Positions 13,616 to 46,445 of a DNA stretch of 64,000 nt are shown piece by piece. A program made the position numbers and the translations under genes. The notes beneath the pieces are model-generated. The model worked only from the letters and a program-made list of their open reading frames with translations. It did no database searches and was not told the DNA's origin. Source of the stretch: Carboxylicivirga sp. M1479 (lineage in GTDB: Bacteria; Bacteroidota; Bacteroidia; Bacteroidales; Marinilabiliaceae); contig NZ_VKDE01000003.1 of NCBI RefSeq assembly GCF_007097485.1, forward strand, positions 1 through 64,000, read 5' to 3'. The number at the start of each line of letters is the position of its first letter. Positions within the stretch are counted from its first letter, which is position 1.

Positions 13616-16036
13616 ATGAGTTTACGTTTGATATTATTTTCGTTGTTAGTTATTTTTGGTGCTCAGCTTGTGTTGCAGGCACAAAGTATCGACCCCAATT
13701 CTGTCGATGTGAAATCCATGAATGTGGATGATATGACCGATGCTCAAGTCTTGCGCATGGTGCAAGAGATGGAGAAGCGGGGGTTGTCAGAACAGCAGGC
13801 CATCGCACTTGCCCAGGCTCGTGGGATGAGTCAACAGCAGATTGCTAAATTAAGACAACGAATCAATGAGGTGAAACTATCAGGGGGATCTGATGCTACA
13901 AATCGAGGCGGCAGTGGAGCGATGACCGATGGGTATGGCATGGTGGAATCCATCAAGATGCCTGTTGATTCTGCAGTTGTCGATCAGCGTATTTTTGGTT
14001 TCTCCTTCTTTAATAATGAAAACCTGACCTTTGAACCCAACGTGAACATTCCGGTGCCACCATCCTATGTGCTTGGTGCTGGTGATGAATTATTAATCGA
14101 CGTATGGGGAGTATCTCAACAGAGCTACCAATTACTTGTTGATAAAAACGGATCTATTAACATTCCTAATGTAGGGCCCGTTCAAATTGGAGGCTTAACA
14201 CAAGAAGCAGCCCAAAAGCGCGTATTTAATAAGCTAACTTCAATTTATAGCGACCTGAAATCTTCAAACCCACGTACGTTTGCCACCATTAATGTGGGTA
14301 CGGTTAAGTCCATTAAAGTCAATGTGATTGGGGAAGTGTTTTTACCAGGGACCTATACCTTGCCTGGTACGGCATCTGCTTTTAATGCTTTGTATTTATC
14401 CGGTGGCCCTAACAAAGATGGTTCTTTTCGTAATATCCAAGTAATACGTAATGGTGAAATTATTGCCGAGTTGGATGTGTATGAATTTTTGTTGAGAGGT
14501 AAGAGTGATATAAACATTCCTTTAAGTGATAACGATATTGTTTTGATACCGACCTATGAAAAACGAATCAAAATAGCAGGCGAATTTAAACGCAATGGAT
14601 TGTTCGAAGCCAAAGATCAAGAGGTGGTGAGTGATATGATTGAGTTCGCTGGTGGTTTTACTGAGGATGCCTATTCTCAGCGTATTGAATTATACCGTAC
14701 CACATCCAAACAACGTTCATTTAAAGATGTAATGGCTAATAGTTACGATCAGGTAATGTTGCAGAGTGGTGATAGTATTGTGGCTGGTGTCGTGTTAGAA
14801 CGGTACGAGAACAAAGTTAGTATTGAAGGGGCTGTTTATCGACCAGGGAATTACGAATTAACAGAAGGCTTAAGTCTAAAGCAATTGATTGATAAGGCGG
14901 ATGGCGTTAGGGAAGATGTATTTCTTAATCGTGGTTTAATTACGCGCCTAATGGATGACCTAAGTTTGCAAAACATCACCTTTAACGTACAAGAAATACT
15001 TCGTGGAGATCAGGACATCGCCTTGCAGCGTGAAGATATCATCACCATATCATCGATTGAGGATTTAAGAGAAATAAGGACGGTAGAAATATTTGGCGAG
15101 GTGCAATACCCCGGTGAGTTTGACTTCAATCAGGAAATGACTTTGTCAGATTTGGTATTTAAAGCAGGTGGTTTTAAAGAATCTGCTTCAGAGGCTTTCA
15201 TTGAAATTTCACGCCGTTTAAGTCATGATGAAGCACAAAAGTCAGGCAATAAAATAGCACACGTCTACCAATTCTCCATATCCCGACAGCTAAAGATGCA
15301 CGGTGAGGATGCACAGTTTAGCTTACAACCATTTGATCAGGTCTTTGTAAGGCAGGCACCCGGTTTCGAAACGAAATCAATCATTAATGTGTATGGAGAG
15401 GTGAATTATGCCGGCTCTTTCAGTTTAACCTCCAAAAACGAGCGGGTATCGACCATAATAACCCGCGCTGGAGGCTTGTCGCCAGATGCCTACCCTAAAG
15501 GAGCTATGTTGACCCGTAAGGTGGAGGTATCGCAAAAAGTAAAGCGATTAAGAGAGCAACTCGTTGCATCAGATACCTCATTGGTATTCTCAGATCTAGG
15601 TTTCGATGTGGTGAGCATTGATTTGGAACAAATTCTTAAGAATCCAGGGACGAAAGAAGATATCTTTTTGCAAGATGGTGATGAATTAGTCATTCCCCGT
15701 CAGTTACAAACAGTAAAGGTAAGCGGAGGCGTACTAAATCCCTTATCAGTATCATACATAGAGGGTAAGAATATGAAGCACTATGTGCGTTCCGGTGGTG
15801 GTTTTGATTTGCGAGCAAAAAAAGGAAAAGTATATGTGATTTATCCCAATGGAGCAGCTGCTTCAACAAAAAACTTCTTGTTTTTTAGGAGCTACCCCAA
15901 GATAATGCCAGGGTCTGAAGTTGTGGTGCCACAGAAACCCGTCAAAGAACCAATCCCTGCATCTGCCTGGATTGCGATGGCTAGCGCCTTGGCTTCATTG
16001 TCACTCACGATTGTTACAATTGTTGACAGAATGTAG
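13616..16036 (+). CDS. Wza-like polysaccharide export protein with SLBB repeats
   Basis: An 806-residue outer-membrane polysaccharide channel of the OPX family. It has a signal peptide (MSLRLILFSLLVIFGAQLVLQAQ), a region rich in Gln and Met (about 30-90), and a Poly_export domain (about 140-230, VPPSYVLGAGDELLIDVWG). Several SLBB domains follow (recognisable by VNVIGEVFLPGTYTLPG, VSIEGAVYRPGNYELTEG, VEIFGEVQYPGEF, INVYGEVNYAGSFSLT), and a C-terminal hydrophobic helix near 785-800. The extra SLBB repeats make it about twice the size of E. coli Wza, which is usual in Bacteroidota. It opens the polysaccharide locus and pairs with the Wzz protein downstream. Confidence 0.92.
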   Translation: MSLRLILFSLLVIFGAQLVLQAQSIDPNSVDVKSMNVDDMTDAQVLRMVQEMEKRGLSEQQAIALAQARGMSQQQIAKLRQRINEVKLSGGSDATNRGGSGAMTDGYGMVESIKMPVDSAVVDQRIFGFSFFNNENLTFEPNVNIPVPPSYVLGAGDELLIDVWGVSQQSYQLLVDKNGSINIPNVGPVQIGGLTQEAAQKRVFNKLTSIYSDLKSSNPRTFATINVGTVKSIKVNVIGEVFLPGTYTLPGTASAFNALYLSGGPNKDGSFRNIQVIRNGEIIAELDVYEFLLRGKSDINIPLSDNDIVLIPTYEKRIKIAGEFKRNGLFEAKDQEVVSDMIEFAGGFTEDAYSQRIELYRTTSKQRSFKDVMANSYDQVMLQSGDSIVAGVVLERYENKVSIEGAVYRPGNYELTEGLSLKQLIDKADGVREDVFLNRGLITRLMDDLSLQNITFNVQEILRGDQDIALQREDIITISSIEDLREIRTVEIFGEVQYPGEFDFNQEMTLSDLVFKAGGFKESASEAFIEISRRLSHDEAQKSGNKIAHVYQFSISRQLKMHGEDAQFSLQPFDQVFVRQAPGFETKSIINVYGEVNYAGSFSLTSKNERVSTIITRAGGLSPDAYPKGAMLTRKVEVSQKVKRLREQLVASDTSLVFSDLGFDVVSIDLEQILKNPGTKEDIFLQDGDELVIPRQLQTVKVSGGVLNPLSVSYIEGKNMKHYVRSGGGFDLRAKKGKVYVIYPNGAAASTKNFLFFRSYPKIMPGSEVVVPQKPVKEPIPASAWIAMASALASLSLTIVTIVDRM

Positions 16037-16060: not shown

Positions 16061-16177
16061 AACCGCATATTGCACGGATTATCACAGAAAAAGAAATAGC
16101 TATGCCATTTCAATTAATAAATGTAAAACAACGCAGTTGTTTTCAAATCCGTGTTAATCAGCGTCAATCAGCGGACA
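16061..16177. repeat. Structured repeat field 1, unit 1
   Basis: Begins AACCGCA and ends CAGCGGACA. It holds an AAATAGC-TAT-GCCATTT hairpin (one mismatch) and an AACAAC-GCA-GTTGTT hairpin between outer arms that are imperfect complements of each other. Confidence 0.75.
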
Positions 16178-16217
16178 AAGGAAAGTAAAACATATACCTG
16201 TGGATGAAAGAATAATC

Positions 16218-16345
16218 AACCACAGATTACACAGATTAACACAGAAAAGAAATAGCTATGCTATTTCATAAAGGAAAAGCGAATAGGATATATACGAAAT
16301 AACGAAGTTTTTTAATCCGTGCTAATCAGCGTCAATCTGTGGACA
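16218..16345. repeat. Structured repeat field 1, unit 2
   Basis: Outer left arm AACCACAGATTACACAGATT and outer right arm ending CTGTGGACA are imperfect complements; both ends carry TGTGG/CCACA where other units have TGCGG/CCGCA, a paired change. First inner hairpin AAATAGC-TAT-GCTATTT; the second is degenerate (AACGAAGTT). Confidence 0.8.
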
Positions 16346-16417
16346 AAGAAAGTAAAGTATCTATTTGTGGATAAAGAAACGATAGAGTGCTATTAATAAG
16401 ATAATAGAATAGTATAA

Positions 16418-16795
16418 ATGACAATATTACCTGATAAGGAAAAGACCTATAAAATAATTGGTTGTTGCATGGAAGTGCATTCCGAACTAGGTGGAGGCAT
16501 GTTAGAACCAATTTATCAGGAAGCACTAGCTATTGAATTGGCTAATAAGCAGGTTTCATTCAAACGAGAAGAAGCGTTAAGAGTATATTACAAAGGAGTT
16601 GAATTAAACAAACGGTATAAAGCCGATTTTGTCTGTTACGATGAAATTATAATAGAATTAAAAGCGGTTTCTGAGCTGACAGATGAACACATGGCACAAG
16701 TGATAAATTATTTAAAGATAACCGGAAAGAAACTGGCATTACTTGTTAATTTTGGAAATGAATCATTGGAATACAAGAGAGTCATTAATTCATAA
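16418..16795 (+). CDS. GxxExxY protein, PD-(D/E)XK nuclease-like (copy 1)
   Basis: A 125-residue member of the GxxExxY family, small proteins assigned to the PD-(D/E)XK nuclease fold, with no established function. The name-giving motif is Gly27-x-x-Glu30-x-x-Tyr33. Possible catalytic residues are Asp70 (ADFVC) and Glu80-x-Lys82 (IELKA), all present, so the active site looks intact. It has no signal peptide. The gene sits alone between the export protein and wzz and is flanked on both sides by units of one structured repeat family (two before, three after). A second copy at 44883 keeps the same residues at the same positions. Nucleic acid cleavage or repeat processing is only a hypothesis. Confidence 0.88.
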   Translation: MTILPDKEKTYKIIGCCMEVHSELGGGMLEPIYQEALAIELANKQVSFKREEALRVYYKGVELNKRYKADFVCYDEIIIELKAVSELTDEHMAQVINYLKITGKKLALLVNFGNESLEYKRVINS

Positions 16796-16866
16796 GTAAG
16801 CACTAATAGAAATAATATTAGACCATAGATTAACGGGTGTGAACTTTAAAGAAAAGGAAAAAAAGT

Positions 16867-16973
16867 AACCGCAGGTTATCACAGAAAAGAAATAGCTTAG
16901 CTATTTCAATTAATAAACTTAAAACGACGCAGTTGTTTTTAAATCCGTGTTAATCAGTGAATATCTGCGGACA
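16867..16973. repeat. Structured repeat field 1, unit 3
   Basis: Starts AACCGCAGGTTATCACAG and ends CTGCGGACA. Inner hairpins are AAATAGC-TTA-GCTATTT and AACGAC-GCA-GTTGTT. The left arm is about 12 bases shorter than in other units. With units 4 and 5 it forms a tandem array with a period of about 235 bases. Confidence 0.8.
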
Positions 16974-17099
16974 GCGAAAAGGAAAGTATAGAATCGCAGA
17001 TTAAACAGATGGTCATTAAAAAGAGAACTGACAATTATTTAGATTCAAAAGATACCGTGTTAAGCGGCAGACTGGATAAATAGAGAAAAGGAAAAAAAT

Positions 17100-17224
17100 A
17101 ACCGCAGATTACACAGATTAACACAGAAGAGAAATAGCGATGCTATTTAAAAAAGAAAGGATTACGATTTAAGGAACAACACAGTTGTTTAAAATCCGTG
17201 TTCATCAGCGAAAATCTGCGGACA
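17100..17224. repeat. Structured repeat field 1, unit 4
   Basis: Left arm AACCGCAGATTACACAGATT, inner hairpins AAATAGC-GAT-GCTATTT and AACAAC-ACA-GTTGTT, right arm ending AAAATCTGCGGACA. Between units 3-4 and 4-5 a second shared segment recurs (around 16980-17050 and 17234-17300, containing GGTCATTAAAAAG or its variant and GACAATTATTTAGATT). Confidence 0.8.
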
Positions 17225-17335
17225 GAGAAAAAGAAAGTATTGAATCGCAGATTAGATAGACTGTCATTAAAAAGGGAAACGACAATTATTTAGATTAAAA
17301 GAGCATCATATAAATTGGTAAGAATAAAAAAAAGT

Positions 17336-17461
17336 AACCACAGATTTCACAGATTAACACAGAAAAGAAATAGCGATGCTATTTAAAAAATGAGAGGATT
17401 ACGATTTAAGGAACGACACAGTTGTTTCAAATCCGTGTTAATCAGCGAAAATCTGCGGACA
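17336..17461. repeat. Structured repeat field 1, unit 5
   Basis: Left arm AACCACAGATTTCACAGATT, inner hairpins AAATAGC-GAT-GCTATTT and AACGAC-ACA-GTTGTT, right arm ending AAAATCTGCGGACA. It ends 40 bases before the wzz start codon. Confidence 0.8.
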
Positions 17462-17501: not shown

Positions 17502-18611
17502 ATGAATACAGAAAATACAAACGATAACTTACAAATCATCAAAGACGATGAAATAGACCTTATCGCCCTCGTCAAAACAATCTGGAATGGTCGAAAGACC
17601 ATTTATTATTCCATTGGCGTAGCTGTAATTATTGGCTTAATCATTGCCTTTACCAGTCCAGTAAAATACCAGGCATACTCTACCCTTATCCCTTCTGAAG
17701 AAAAAAAAGGAGGAATGGGTAACCTAGGAGCATTAGCAGGTATGGCAGGTATTAATCTCGGTTCCATGATGGGCGGTACATCTGGCATTCCAGCTGAGGT
17801 GTATCCGCAGGTGGTTAATTCTTATCCCTTTAAAAAAGAGATGGTGCATCAGAAGTTTCATTTTGAAGACTATACTGAACCAATTTCATTGTACGAATAT
17901 GCTTTGGCTGATACAATAGAATCTCTTGGTAGCAAAGTGGCTAAATATACTATTCGTTTGCCCTGGACCATTAAAGATGCTCTAAGTGGTGGAAACGAGG
18001 ACCTTAAAACTGAATTACCCGATTATGGGGTACTCCAATTATCTGAAGAGGAGTTACGTGCCATGGCAGCAGTAGAACAGGTGATAGTTATTGAAGTGGA
18101 TAAAAAAACGGGACTAATCAATGTGTCAGCCGAAGTGGGTGAACCAGTTTTGGTAGCTCAGTTCGTGCAAAAAGCTGTTGAGTTATTGCAAAACTATGTG
18201 ATCCGTTACAAAACCAAACAGGCACGTGAACACCTGGAGTTTATACAAAAGCAATACGACCAAAAGAAAGAGATATACGAACAGTCACAAGGGCGCTTAT
18301 ATGCATACAAAGACAAGCATCGTAACATGGTGTCGGAACGTGTTAATTTAGAGTTTCAACGCTTAAGTGATGATTACGATATGTCATCAACCGTTTTTAA
18401 AGGTTTGGCTCAGCAATTGGAACAGGCCAAGATTGCGGTGAATGAGCAAACGCCTGCCTTCACCATCTTGGAACCAGCCAAAGTGCCAATTGATAAAAGT
18501 GGACCGAAGAAAAAGATTATTTTAGTGGTGAGTGTGTTTTTAGGTGGGTTTGTTGGATTAGGAGTTGTGTTTGGTAAGTTGGTGTGGTCAAGTGTGAAAA
18601 ATAATTTTTAA
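17502..18611 (+). CDS. wzz: Wzz/GNVR chain-length determinant (polysaccharide co-polymerase)
   Basis: A 369-residue inner-membrane protein that sets the length of Wzy-made polysaccharide. There is a short cytoplasmic N-terminus, a membrane helix at about residues 36-54, a periplasmic region with a long coiled coil (about 220-310, with [15 protein letters not shown]), the conserved proline-containing stretch [16 protein letters not shown], and a second helix at about 342-362. It carries no C-terminal Wzc-type tyrosine kinase, so it is a kinase-less type. It starts 12 bases before ugd and is probably in one transcript with it. Confidence 0.9.
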
Positions 18612-42639: not shown

Positions 42640-43560
42640 GTAAAGAGAGGTGAGAGAAGAGTCTTTCGCAATGGCTGTAAAGAAAAGTAGCCGACTAATA
42701 ATTTTGTATAACTACCATATTTCCGAAGGAAATAAATCTGTGCACATCAGCGAAATTCTGCGGACAAGAAATGGTAAGTTGAGTATTTCTAGCAAAGGTT
42801 GGAAAGAATAGAAAGCATCAAGGTTGTGATAATATTTTTTTTAGCAAGATGTGAATTGAGGTAGCTTTTGAGTGAATATCGGAGCTGAATGGTTCCCTTC
42901 GCGTTCTCGTTTGCCTCTGCGGTAAATTTTTGTAAAAGTTGTTTAAGTTTCCAAAGGAAACTTATCTGTGGACATCCGCGAAAAACCTGCGGACAAGAAA
43001 AAAGAAAGCAATAAGAGGAGAGTTGTGAGAAATGAGTTTTTCACGCAAAGTTCGCAAAGGGATCTATCAATATACTTTCGTTCTTAGTGATAATTATTTT
43101 ACTAAAAGCGGTCGCTAGACATATTTAGAACCACAGTATCTTCTCCGCGTTCTCCTTTTCCTCTGCGGTAAAATTTTTATAGTTGTTCCAAGTTTTCGAA
43201 GAAAACATATCTGTGTACATCAGCGTAAATCTGCGGGTAAGAAAAAAAGAAAGTAATGAGAGGAGAGATGTGAGCAATGAGTTTTTCACGCAAAGTTCGC
43301 AAAGGGATCTATCAATAAGCTTGGCGTATTGGCGAATGTTTTAGCGCACATCGCGAGAAGCGTTTATCTAAATGCGATCACAATTTACTTTTTGATATAC
43401 AGTATCTTCTCAGCGTACTCCTTTAACTCTGCGGTAAAACTTTTTTTAAAGTTTCCAAAGGAAACGAATCTGTGTACATCAGCGCAAATCAGCGGGCAAG
43501 AAAAAAGAAAGCGATAAGAGGAGAGTTGTGAGAAATGAGTTTTGTACGCAGAGGGCTCAA
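42640..43560. repeat. Structured repeat field 2 upstream of gmd
   Basis: Four copies of a block made of a short hairpin (42719-42733, 42947-42961, 43192-43206, 43451-43465), then ATCTGTGnACATCnGCG and CTGCGG. Three of them are preceded by a TCTGCGGTAAA block preceded by an imperfect CTCCGCGTTCTCCTTT (42896, 43140, 43406). A TTTTTCACGCAAAGTTCGCA block lies at 43037 and 43281. The period is about 240-265 bases. The right-end motif is shared with field 1. Short frames inside are not coding. Confidence 0.8.
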
Positions 43561-43714
43561 GGATTAAAGTATTATTAAGCTAGCAAAGAGCCATCCTTTT
43601 TGGAAATAATTGAATATAAGACGATATTTGTACTTCAAATAATAATTATCAGGAAGATACTTTATCAATAGGGGGCATTTTCCGACTTCTACTTTTAAAA
43701 AATAAACACATACT

Positions 43715-44882: not shown

Positions 44883-45275
44883 ATGACAGACATAATTTAT
44901 AAGGAAGAAAGTTATAAAGTCATTGGTGCCTGCATGGCTGTTCATTCGCAACTGGGGCCTGGATTTCTTGAGGCTGTTTATCAAGAAGCATTGGAAAGAG
45001 AGTTTTCAAAGCAAGAAATTCCCTTTGAGCGTCAAAAGAAGTTGACAATTTATTATGATAGGAAACCCTTGAGGAAATATTATATAGTTGATTTTGTTTG
45101 TTATGGAGCAATCGTGGTTGAAATAAAATCAACCAATTCTTTTGTAAAGAATCAATATGATCAGACGGGTAATTATTTACGAGCTATCAATCATAGACTT
45201 GGGATATTGGTCAACTTTGGTACGGCTTCTTTATCCTATAAACGTATTATCAATCCACAATATTCGAATAATTAG
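44883..45275 (+). CDS. GxxExxY protein, PD-(D/E)XK nuclease-like (copy 2)
   Basis: A 130-residue member of the GxxExxY family. Gly27-x-x-Glu30-x-x-Tyr33, Asp70 (VDFVC) and Glu80-x-Lys82 (VEIKS) are at exactly the same positions as in copy 1 at 16418, although the rest has diverged. The possible nuclease site is therefore kept in both. It is inserted between gmd and fcl, genes that normally lie side by side, and repeat field 2 ends 155 bases before gmd. Function unknown. Confidence 0.88.
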   Translation: MTDIIYKEESYKVIGACMAVHSQLGPGFLEAVYQEALEREFSKQEIPFERQKKLTIYYDRKPLRKYYIVDFVCYGAIVVEIKSTNSFVKNQYDQTGNYLRAINHRLGILVNFGTASLSYKRIINPQYSNN

Positions 45276-45323: not shown

Positions 45324-46445
45324 ATGAAATATACAGAAAAGATATACATAGCTGGCCATCGTGGCCTGGTAGGTTCAGCCTTATGGAAGACCCTGCAAAA
45401 TAAAGGCTATACCAATTTAATAGGACGTTCAATTGACGAGCTAAACCTGATGGATTCCGAAGCGGTTAATCAATTTTTTAAAGCCGAGAAACCGGATTAT
45501 GTGATATTGGCAGCTGCGAAGGTGGGCGGTATTGTGGCCAATAATACCTATCGGGGACAGTTCATTTACGAGAACCTAATGATACAAAACAATGTGATTC
45601 ACTCGGCTTATGTACATGGTGTGAAGAAACTATTGTTTTTAGGTTCTACATGTATTTACCCTAAGCAGGCACCACAGCCCATGCCGGAAGATTGTTTGTT
45701 GACATCTCCCCTGGAATATACCAATGAGCCCTATGCCATTGCTAAGATTGCTGGGATTAAAATGTGTGAGTCTTACAACTTGCAGTATGGAACCAATTTT
45801 ATTTCGGTGATGCCAACGAATTTGTACGGTCCAAACGATAATTTTGACTTGGAGAAGTCTCATGTCTTACCTGCTTTGGTACGTAAAAATCACCTGGGTA
45901 AATGCCTTCAAAATAATGACTGGACAGCCTTGCGTGCTGATTTGGATAAAAATCCGATTGAAGGCATTAATGGTAGTCACTCCGAAGAAGAAATACTCAA
46001 TAAGCTTGATAAATACGGCATTCGTTTAAATTCGTTTAATTCGGATGACCATTTGCCTAATTCGCGAGTAAGTATAGAGATTTGGGGGACAGGCAAGCCC
46101 ATGCGCGAATTCCTTTGGTCGGAAGAGATGGCGGCTGCTTGTGTGTATGTGATGGAGAAAGTCGATTTTAAAGATACTTATGCGTCGACTGACTCTGCGA
46201 ACAAAAGTGAAGTCAGAAATACACACATCAACATAGGAACAGGTAAGGAAATTTCCATTAAGCAATTGGCTGAGACCATCAAAGAGAAAGTTGGTTTTGA
46301 GGGTGATTTGATTTTTAATTCCGATAAGCCCGATGGTACCATGCGTAAACTCACCGATCCGACAAAGATTCATGACTTAGGTTGGCATCACCAGATAGAT
46401 GTCGAAGAGGGAATAGAGAAGATGTATCAGTGGTATGTAAATTAG
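45324..46445 (+). CDS. fcl: GDP-L-fucose synthase
   Basis: A 373-residue epimerase/reductase completing GDP-L-fucose. AGHRGLVGSALWKTL, LGSTCIYPKQAPQPMPEDCL, YAIAKIAGIKMCE (Tyr-x-x-x-Lys) and MPTNLYGPNDNFD are clear. It carries an insertion of about 45 residues after HVLPALVRK (about residues 190-235) that is usual for Bacteroidota forms and makes it longer than the 320-residue E. coli enzyme. With gmd and manC it forms a fucose supply set. Confidence 0.95.
   Translation: MKYTEKIYIAGHRGLVGSALWKTLQNKGYTNLIGRSIDELNLMDSEAVNQFFKAEKPDYVILAAAKVGGIVANNTYRGQFIYENLMIQNNVIHSAYVHGVKKLLFLGSTCIYPKQAPQPMPEDCLLTSPLEYTNEPYAIAKIAGIKMCESYNLQYGTNFISVMPTNLYGPNDNFDLEKSHVLPALVRKNHLGKCLQNNDWTALRADLDKNPIEGINGSHSEEEILNKLDKYGIRLNSFNSDDHLPNSRVSIEIWGTGKPMREFLWSEEMAAACVYVMEKVDFKDTYASTDSANKSEVRNTHINIGTGKEISIKQLAETIKEKVGFEGDLIFNSDKPDGTMRKLTDPTKIHDLGWHHQIDVEEGIEKMYQWYVN

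Follow-up and report, generated by a model that had tools for sequence, protein, structure and literature searches.

In insertion sequence/MITE pairs, a single gene is bordered by terminal inverted repeats and accompanied by derivatives that lack it; integron attC sites are folded, with one strand better paired than the other, and belong to cassette arrays that carry toxin-antitoxin-like genes. Small PD-(D/E)XK proteins occur in multiple copies in the Rpn-type 'recombination-promoting nuclease' families, for which we know of no cognate repeats. In the RAYT/REP system, as far as the available portions of two papers describe it, one nuclease-type gene accompanies each repeat family and is flanked by copies of it, a genome may hold several gene types, each with its own repeat, and further copies are dispersed between genes and are able to fold as single strands (PMC6006769, PMC3733652).

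The window analysed here is a stretch of 64,000 nucleotides from Carboxylicivirga sp. M1479 (contig NZ_VKDE01000003.1). Positions 16061-17461 hold five units of 107-128 bp each, which flank an intact GxxExxY gene. The spacer that they occupy has a polysaccharide-export gene (13616-16036) on one side and a Wzz-like gene (17502-18611) on the other, both named from their translations. A sequence-only reading of the window had described five units on one plan, two before and three after the gene, and the coordinates confirm this arrangement:

16061..16177, + strand: structured unit 1, CAGAT flavour, with two inner hairpins (sequence and repeat search)
16218..16345, + strand: structured unit 2, ends CCACAG...CTGTGG, hairpin 2 imperfect (sequence and repeat search)
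16418..16795, + strand: GxxExxY gene, encoding a 125-residue protein of predicted PD-(D/E)XK nuclease fold (list of open reading frames, profiles, alignments and structure model)
16867..16973, + strand: structured unit 3, left arm shortened (sequence and repeat search)
about 16990..17070, limits approximate, + strand: decayed unit between units 3 and 4 (by reading; repeat family D5)
17100..17224, + strand: structured unit 4 (sequence and repeat search)
about 17240..17315, limits approximate, + strand: decayed unit between units 4 and 5 (by reading; repeat family D5)
17336..17461, + strand: structured unit 5 (sequence and repeat search)

An outer arm of a window unit comprises at most three sub-repeats (CRCAGATTnn in left arms, AATCnGYGnn in right arms), and the arms enclose one or two inner hairpins (hairpin 1, AAATAGC-nnn-GCTATTT; hairpin 2, AACnAC-nnn-GTTGTT). 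The common plan read earlier, imperfect arms around both hairpins, was recovered with exceptions in units 1, 2 and 3; hairpin 1 of unit 1 and hairpin 2 of unit 2 each carry a mismatch. The two ends had also been said to change together, which is true of unit 2 (CCACAG with CTGTGG) but not of unit 5, where CCACAG faces CTGCGG. An Rfam search returned only two matches, far under the gathering scores and both outside the units, and when window-type unit DNA was compared with its own genome, this locus alone was matched at E 0.001.

The window protein belongs to the GxxExxY family TIGR04256 (150.2 bits, cut-off 35) and to PF13366, PDDEXK_3 (140 bits, cut-off 22). Residues E30, D70, E80, K82 and Q94 are invariant in both GxxExxY alignments, and the invariant D70 and E80/K82 (ExK), together with a structure model (pLDDT 93.5), agree with a predicted PD-(D/E)XK nuclease fold. 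The best PDB matches of the model were lambda exonuclease (E 2e-4) and the Cas4-like SSO0001, with LHK exonuclease also matched; lambda exonuclease and 4ic1 gave E values of 2e-4 to 4e-4 and TM scores of 0.57-0.59 by query length, in superpositions that were loose (rmsd 12-15). An archaeal Holliday-junction resolvase ranked 32nd among the structure matches (E 0.098), and a profile search against PDB sequences produced no significant match (best E 0.51; T7 endonuclease I, 0.53). GxxExxY genes are present in 42 of 60 genomes, the window's own included, and often in several copies. A search with the window protein showed them to be rare on plasmids, with hits in 8 of 72,556 records, each of them non-mobilizable, and three contigs of a viral collection (L111-L113) each encode a relative. 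We found no description of GxxExxY function in the open-access literature, the available portions of the open-access texts that mention the family say nothing about repeats, and searches confined to open-access sources found no printed description of the gene-repeat pairing.

The M1479 genome has four GxxExxY genes. The one at C1:121029 lies beside different units of the same plan (CCGCAGATAACGCAGATAGACGCAGA...ATCAGCGAAAATCAGCGGAATCAGCGGG), the one on C71 has a CAGAG-type pair, and the second gene of the window, at 44883-45275 on the + strand (C54:44907), has weak CGAAT arms only. This second gene is bordered by gmd-like and fcl-like genes, named by reading. Upstream of it, positions 42950-43640 hold about three tandem copies of roughly 245 bp which are composites of CAGAT, CAGAG and CAAAG half-units, and a triple CGAAT arm lies at 46020-46043, within the coding region of the fcl-like gene.

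The physical association of units and gene was assessed with a word-agnostic detector, which requires any 5-mer to be repeated at a distance of 8-11 bp and then to occur again as its reverse complement; on shuffled loci it found 0 and 2 units. Across 149 GxxExxY loci, units were 10-11 times commoner in the first 150 bp from the gene than at distances above 600 bp. The 73 loci from relatives held 0.74 units/kb at 0-150 bp, 0.33 at 150-300 bp and 0.07 beyond 600 bp (9 units in 126 kb), and the 76 loci from many phyla held 0.58, 0.23 and 0.05, respectively (the last being 13 units in 250 kb). This detector, a strict one, placed a unit within 450 bp of the gene in 19/73 and 16/76 of these loci. 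Core-word arms were then counted at threshold 3 in flanks matched for little coding sequence, using other genes of the same loci for comparison; two loci (L015 and L055) have one gene in common, and four cross-phyla loci that repeated relatives' loci were excluded. With a flavour list compiled post hoc, after the flanks had been viewed, and with flanks within one gene cluster not being independent, arms were present at 42/91 GxxExxY flanks versus 9/45 flanks of other genes (P 0.0023), and at 34/69 versus 11/135 in a second locus set (P 7e-11). The corresponding values without matching were 45/142 versus 9/71 and 51/146 versus 17/257. Other multi-copy small gene families of the same 60 genomes served as controls: four-helix-bundle genes had arms at 1/58 flanks (29 of 30 loci usable), on which count a link between these genes and the arms was rejected, and RAYT-type Y1_Tnp genes had them at 0/52 flanks at threshold 3 and at 2/52 at threshold 2 (28 of 30 loci usable).

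Genome-wide, two triple-arm patterns matched 288 and 186 times in the 60 genomes, versus 32 and 21 times for the reversed control. Among the 150 matches listed for each, 14 CGAAT and 28 CAGAT arms lay within 700 bp of a GxxExxY gene, where uniform placement predicts 0.26 and 0.22; taken as clusters, the values were 7/103 and 14/107 (expected 0.19 and 0.14). Most arms among the matches listed lay farther than 700 bp from the nearest GxxExxY gene (136/150 CGAAT, 122/150 CAGAT). The number of arms per genome also differed with gene presence (P 0.022 and 0.048), a correlation that we discounted because matches of the reversed control differ in the same way (31:1, 20:1). A generic inverted-repeat score showed no enrichment at GxxExxY flanks over those of other genes (P 0.14 and 0.47) and was superseded by the detectors that require repeated sub-words. 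The enrichment check proposed by the sequence-only reading was therefore positive with sub-word detectors, core-word arms and control families, the generic score being the exception. The link between gene and repeat, which had then been an inference, is supported both by this near-gene enrichment and by the way in which the repeats follow the protein clades.

The arms consist of about three sub-repeats of 9-10 bp, and the word that these contain (CAGAT, CGAAT, CAAAT and others), here called the flavour, tracks the clade of the protein and not the genome. In an autocorrelation analysis, the spacing of identical 6-mers peaked at 9-10 and 18-20 bp. A single clear flavour could be assigned to 80 of 148 distinct GxxExxY proteins; of the others, 3 were mixed, 28 were weak and 37 had no arms. 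On the protein tree, which rests on few columns and leaves many forks unresolved, six flavours required 11 changes (the minimum possible being 5), as compared to 39.5 in shuffles, of which 0/200 were as low. The match between flavour and clade was weaker but retained when near-copies were removed, with 13 changes versus 22.1 for 44 proteins under 65% identity and 11 versus 16.2 for 32 proteins under 60% (0/200 shuffles as low in either case); it is carried by CAGAT and CGAAT and not by the small groups. One clade of 15 CAGAT proteins (support 88) unites records labelled Planctomycetota, Phycisphaerae, Lentisphaerae, Prosthecobacter, Chloroflexi, Hydrogenedentota, Acidobacteria and Deltaproteobacteria, many of them metagenome bins whose titles may be wrong. 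For the relatives, the nearest protein in another genome had the same flavour in 32 of 36 cases, and two GxxExxY genes of one genome shared theirs only 7 times out of 27. Between genomes, protein pairs with more than 65% identity had matching flavours in 51 of 52 cases. Within 20 kb of a single contig (G035:C4, L196), one gene type has CAGAT arms and another CGAAT arms. Each gene type thus comes with its own repeat family, as in a REPtron.

The sequence-only reading overlooked that the gene itself often lies between the arms, which then form its terminal inverted repeats. We tabulated the nearest same-flavour arms in 81 labelled rows, one of which is a neighbouring gene under a common locus label, and found the order '> gene <' in 31 and '< gene >' in 10, with the remaining rows being '> >' (10), '< <' (5), one-sided (24) or without arms (1). 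When both arms lay within 60 bp of the gene, '> gene <' outnumbered '< gene >' by 20 to 3 (P 0.0005), the two like orientations occurring 4 times and once, and representatives under 65% identity gave 9 versus 2. The 20 compact inverted-repeat elements measure 447-532 bp and contain this nuclease gene alone; in L114, a 26-bp perfect terminal repeat lies directly at the start and stop codons. Terminal inverted repeats around a gene, as in insertion sequences, were therefore found in 20 loci but not in the window, where complete units stand on either side of the gene. Inspection of the 10-bp flanks by eye showed no evident target-site duplication at the 20 compact elements, whose ends are uncertain by some bases. 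Because the gene lies inside an arm pair in so many loci, the window units look like gene-less versions of the nuclease element. A Flavobacteriaceae bin and Salegentibacter echinorum (L167 and L180) each have a GxxExxY element in what seems to be one and the same cysD-cysN operon spacer.

Congeners differ at the sites in question. The Wzz-like gene was found in 13 of 14 genomes of the genus searched. The spacer between wza and wzz is 12-56 bp long in six congeners and holds units and gene in five genomes (M1479 itself, G004, G008, G011 and G012). In G010 it contains a relic of another flavour, and in G009, the sister of gene-bearing G011 (support 100/99), the units persist without the gene. 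The gpsA-pgi spacer measures 72-100 bp in G004, G006 and G009 and is occupied in M1479 and G011; G008 has an arm, a gene remnant and a unit there, G010 and G012 have arm relics, and in G003 (177 bp) and G005 (197 bp) no arms were seen by eye, three further loci having no readable spacer. Filled and empty sites, as known from insertion sequences, thus occur at both spacers. In another genome, G022, a repeat of roughly 270 bp with ends CTAGTGCT...AGCACTAG carries a CGAAT unit in its middle (L259-L280), and 12 of the 20 places examined match at least 265 of 267 positions. We rejected this dispersal as a case of unit spread, since at the 20 examined places the units ride in a larger inverted-repeat element; units can evidently hitch-hike in such a mobile repeat.

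Folding was examined in the units themselves. RNAalifold on 12 window-family units supported hairpin 1 only, with a single both-sided change, so that the covariation anticipated by the sequence-only reading is present but weak in this family. Across flavours, 17 of 44 units had perfect inner hairpins (stem of at least 6) where base shuffles gave 3.65, and 8 of 44 had two hairpins where shuffles gave 0.11. In the same number of units, transition-type arm mismatches that keep G.T pairs numbered 55 on the strand opposite the gene and 15 on the other (CAGAT 17:1, CGAAT 34:11); the window likewise favours the opposite strand, by 12:1. We treat this asymmetry as a lead only, because letters within arms are not independent. 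As the G.T-compatible mismatches lie mainly on the non-coding strand, sense RNA pairs worse. The earlier suggestion of a processed RNA is not supported, since this 55:15 preference for the opposite strand and the units of G009, which persist without the gene, speak against it.

Physical association, the match of flavour and clade, the anatomy of the element and the site differences between congeners are established. They make it probable that gene and units are inherited together as a single module, a PD-(D/E)XK nuclease with a cognate DNA repeat, which resembles RAYT/REP but is unrelated to it. Enrichment and flavour match also bear out the earlier view of a structured, apparently non-autonomous repeat tied to a small nuclease with REP/RAYT-like logic. 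The pairing of hairpin repeats with a small nuclease suggests an undescribed miniature mobile or formerly mobile element. The full form would be an element of 450-530 bp in which the nuclease gene is preceded by a left arm of about three sub-repeats of 9-10 bp and followed by an inverted right arm, and the gene-less units would be derivatives in which short hairpins have replaced the gene and which multiply locally and disperse, like REPs beside a RAYT gene. The nuclease may recognise the sub-repeats, about one per turn of DNA, most probably when the arm pair is folded or extruded, with the non-coding strand being the better paired. It would then cut the folded unit, and repair or copying of the cut could spread or amplify units and gene. 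In the window, the module would have entered the wza-wzz-like operon spacer and subsequently grown to five units. It is tempting to speculate, although we would put this at somewhat under an even chance, that GxxExxY elements represent a novel kind of minimal, autonomously mobile DNA. Such an element would have a single PD-(D/E)XK nuclease of about 125 residues set between terminal inverted repeats of about three one-turn sub-repeats, a flavour code read by each protein clade, and gene-less cloverleaf derivatives across many bacterial phyla.

The units might instead be integron-like recombination sites, folded as single strands and shuffling gene cassettes, with GxxExxY as a cassette or helper. 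The strand asymmetry of arm pairing would fit, as would two arrays (G017:C19, L194; G035:C4, L196) in which short genes of common orientation, many of them toxin-antitoxin-like, have units between them; but loci such as that of the window units and the gpsA-pgi spacers contain GxxExxY as their sole cassette, and the flavour tracks GxxExxY, so that we consider this reading unlikely. The genes in the two arrays include HEPN/MNT, Zeta, PIN, DUF3368, DUF5615 and AlbA, separated by half-units of several flavours, and L194 also contains a TGTCATTCTGAACGAAGTGAAGAATCTC-type repeat. In L013 and L196, GxxExxY units are followed downstream by truncated 5' copies of an ABC-transporter gene and then by a more complete one, which gives the impression that segments bounded by units were duplicated or exchanged. 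Less probable still is a hot-spot coincidence, in which repeats and GxxExxY genes gather in variable intergenic places without acting on one another. It could account for the many listed arms that sit elsewhere, for the other small genes flanked by units in some arrays and for the generic inverted-repeat score, but not readily for the two control families without arms (1/58 and 0/52 flanks), the agreement of flavour with protein clade or the gene's position within one arm pair.

That the protein regulates its own expression through the units, as operators or other control elements, is improbable to a similar or slightly greater degree: the innermost sub-repeat reaches the assumed start codon in 4 of 20 compact elements (L118, L120, L167 and L180), yet arms are equally common downstream and upstream (119 and 116) and there are units a long way from the gene. 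A nuclease gene accompanied by tandem structured repeats also recalls a type III toxin-antitoxin arrangement, with repeat RNA processed by the nuclease and restraining it. We regard this as very unlikely, given repeats on both sides of the gene that have diverged from one another, their retention without the gene in G009 and G.U-compatible pairing chiefly on the antisense strand. Finally, the units could be REPs of a RAYT (HUH) transposase with GxxExxY as a bystander, and the available text of one paper does describe a RAYT subclass, 2.6, as mostly from Bacteroidetes and with atypical flanking structures (PMC6006769). This is almost certainly wrong: the absence of arms at 52 flanks of 28 Y1_Tnp genes at threshold 3 (two at threshold 2) refutes a RAYT origin for these 28, examined out of more than 150 matches.

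A co-inherited module of nuclease and repeat matters because the tie supplies a candidate substrate for GxxExxY proteins and natural pairs of protein and target word, a possible recognition code. It would explain the structured intergenic repeats beside these genes in Bacteroidota, Planctomycetota, Verrucomicrobia-type, Acidobacteria and other records and, if true, would be a PD-(D/E)XK-based counterpart to REP/RAYT. Like insertion sequence/MITE pairs, GxxExxY elements have terminal inverted repeats and gene-less derivatives, but in contrast to insertion sequences they measure only about 490 bp, contain a PD-(D/E)XK gene alone and are putatively mobile. Their units share with integron attC sites a better-paired strand and arrays with toxin-antitoxin-like genes and differ in tracking GxxExxY; Rpn proteins are likewise small, multi-copy and of the PD-(D/E)XK type, but their family models are different. 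As far as the available text on RAYT/REP allows the comparison, the module resembles a REPtron in having one gene per repeat family, repeats of its own, dispersed copies and repeats able to fold as single strands. At threshold 3, none of the 52 examined Y1_Tnp flanks carried arms, and the module falls outside the REPtrons because its gene is not HUH and the examined HUH genes lack arms. RAYT/REP is built on an HUH protein, whereas the GxxExxY module is built on a PD-(D/E)XK protein (PF13366), has arms of about three 9-10-bp sub-repeats and often carries its gene within the arm pair.
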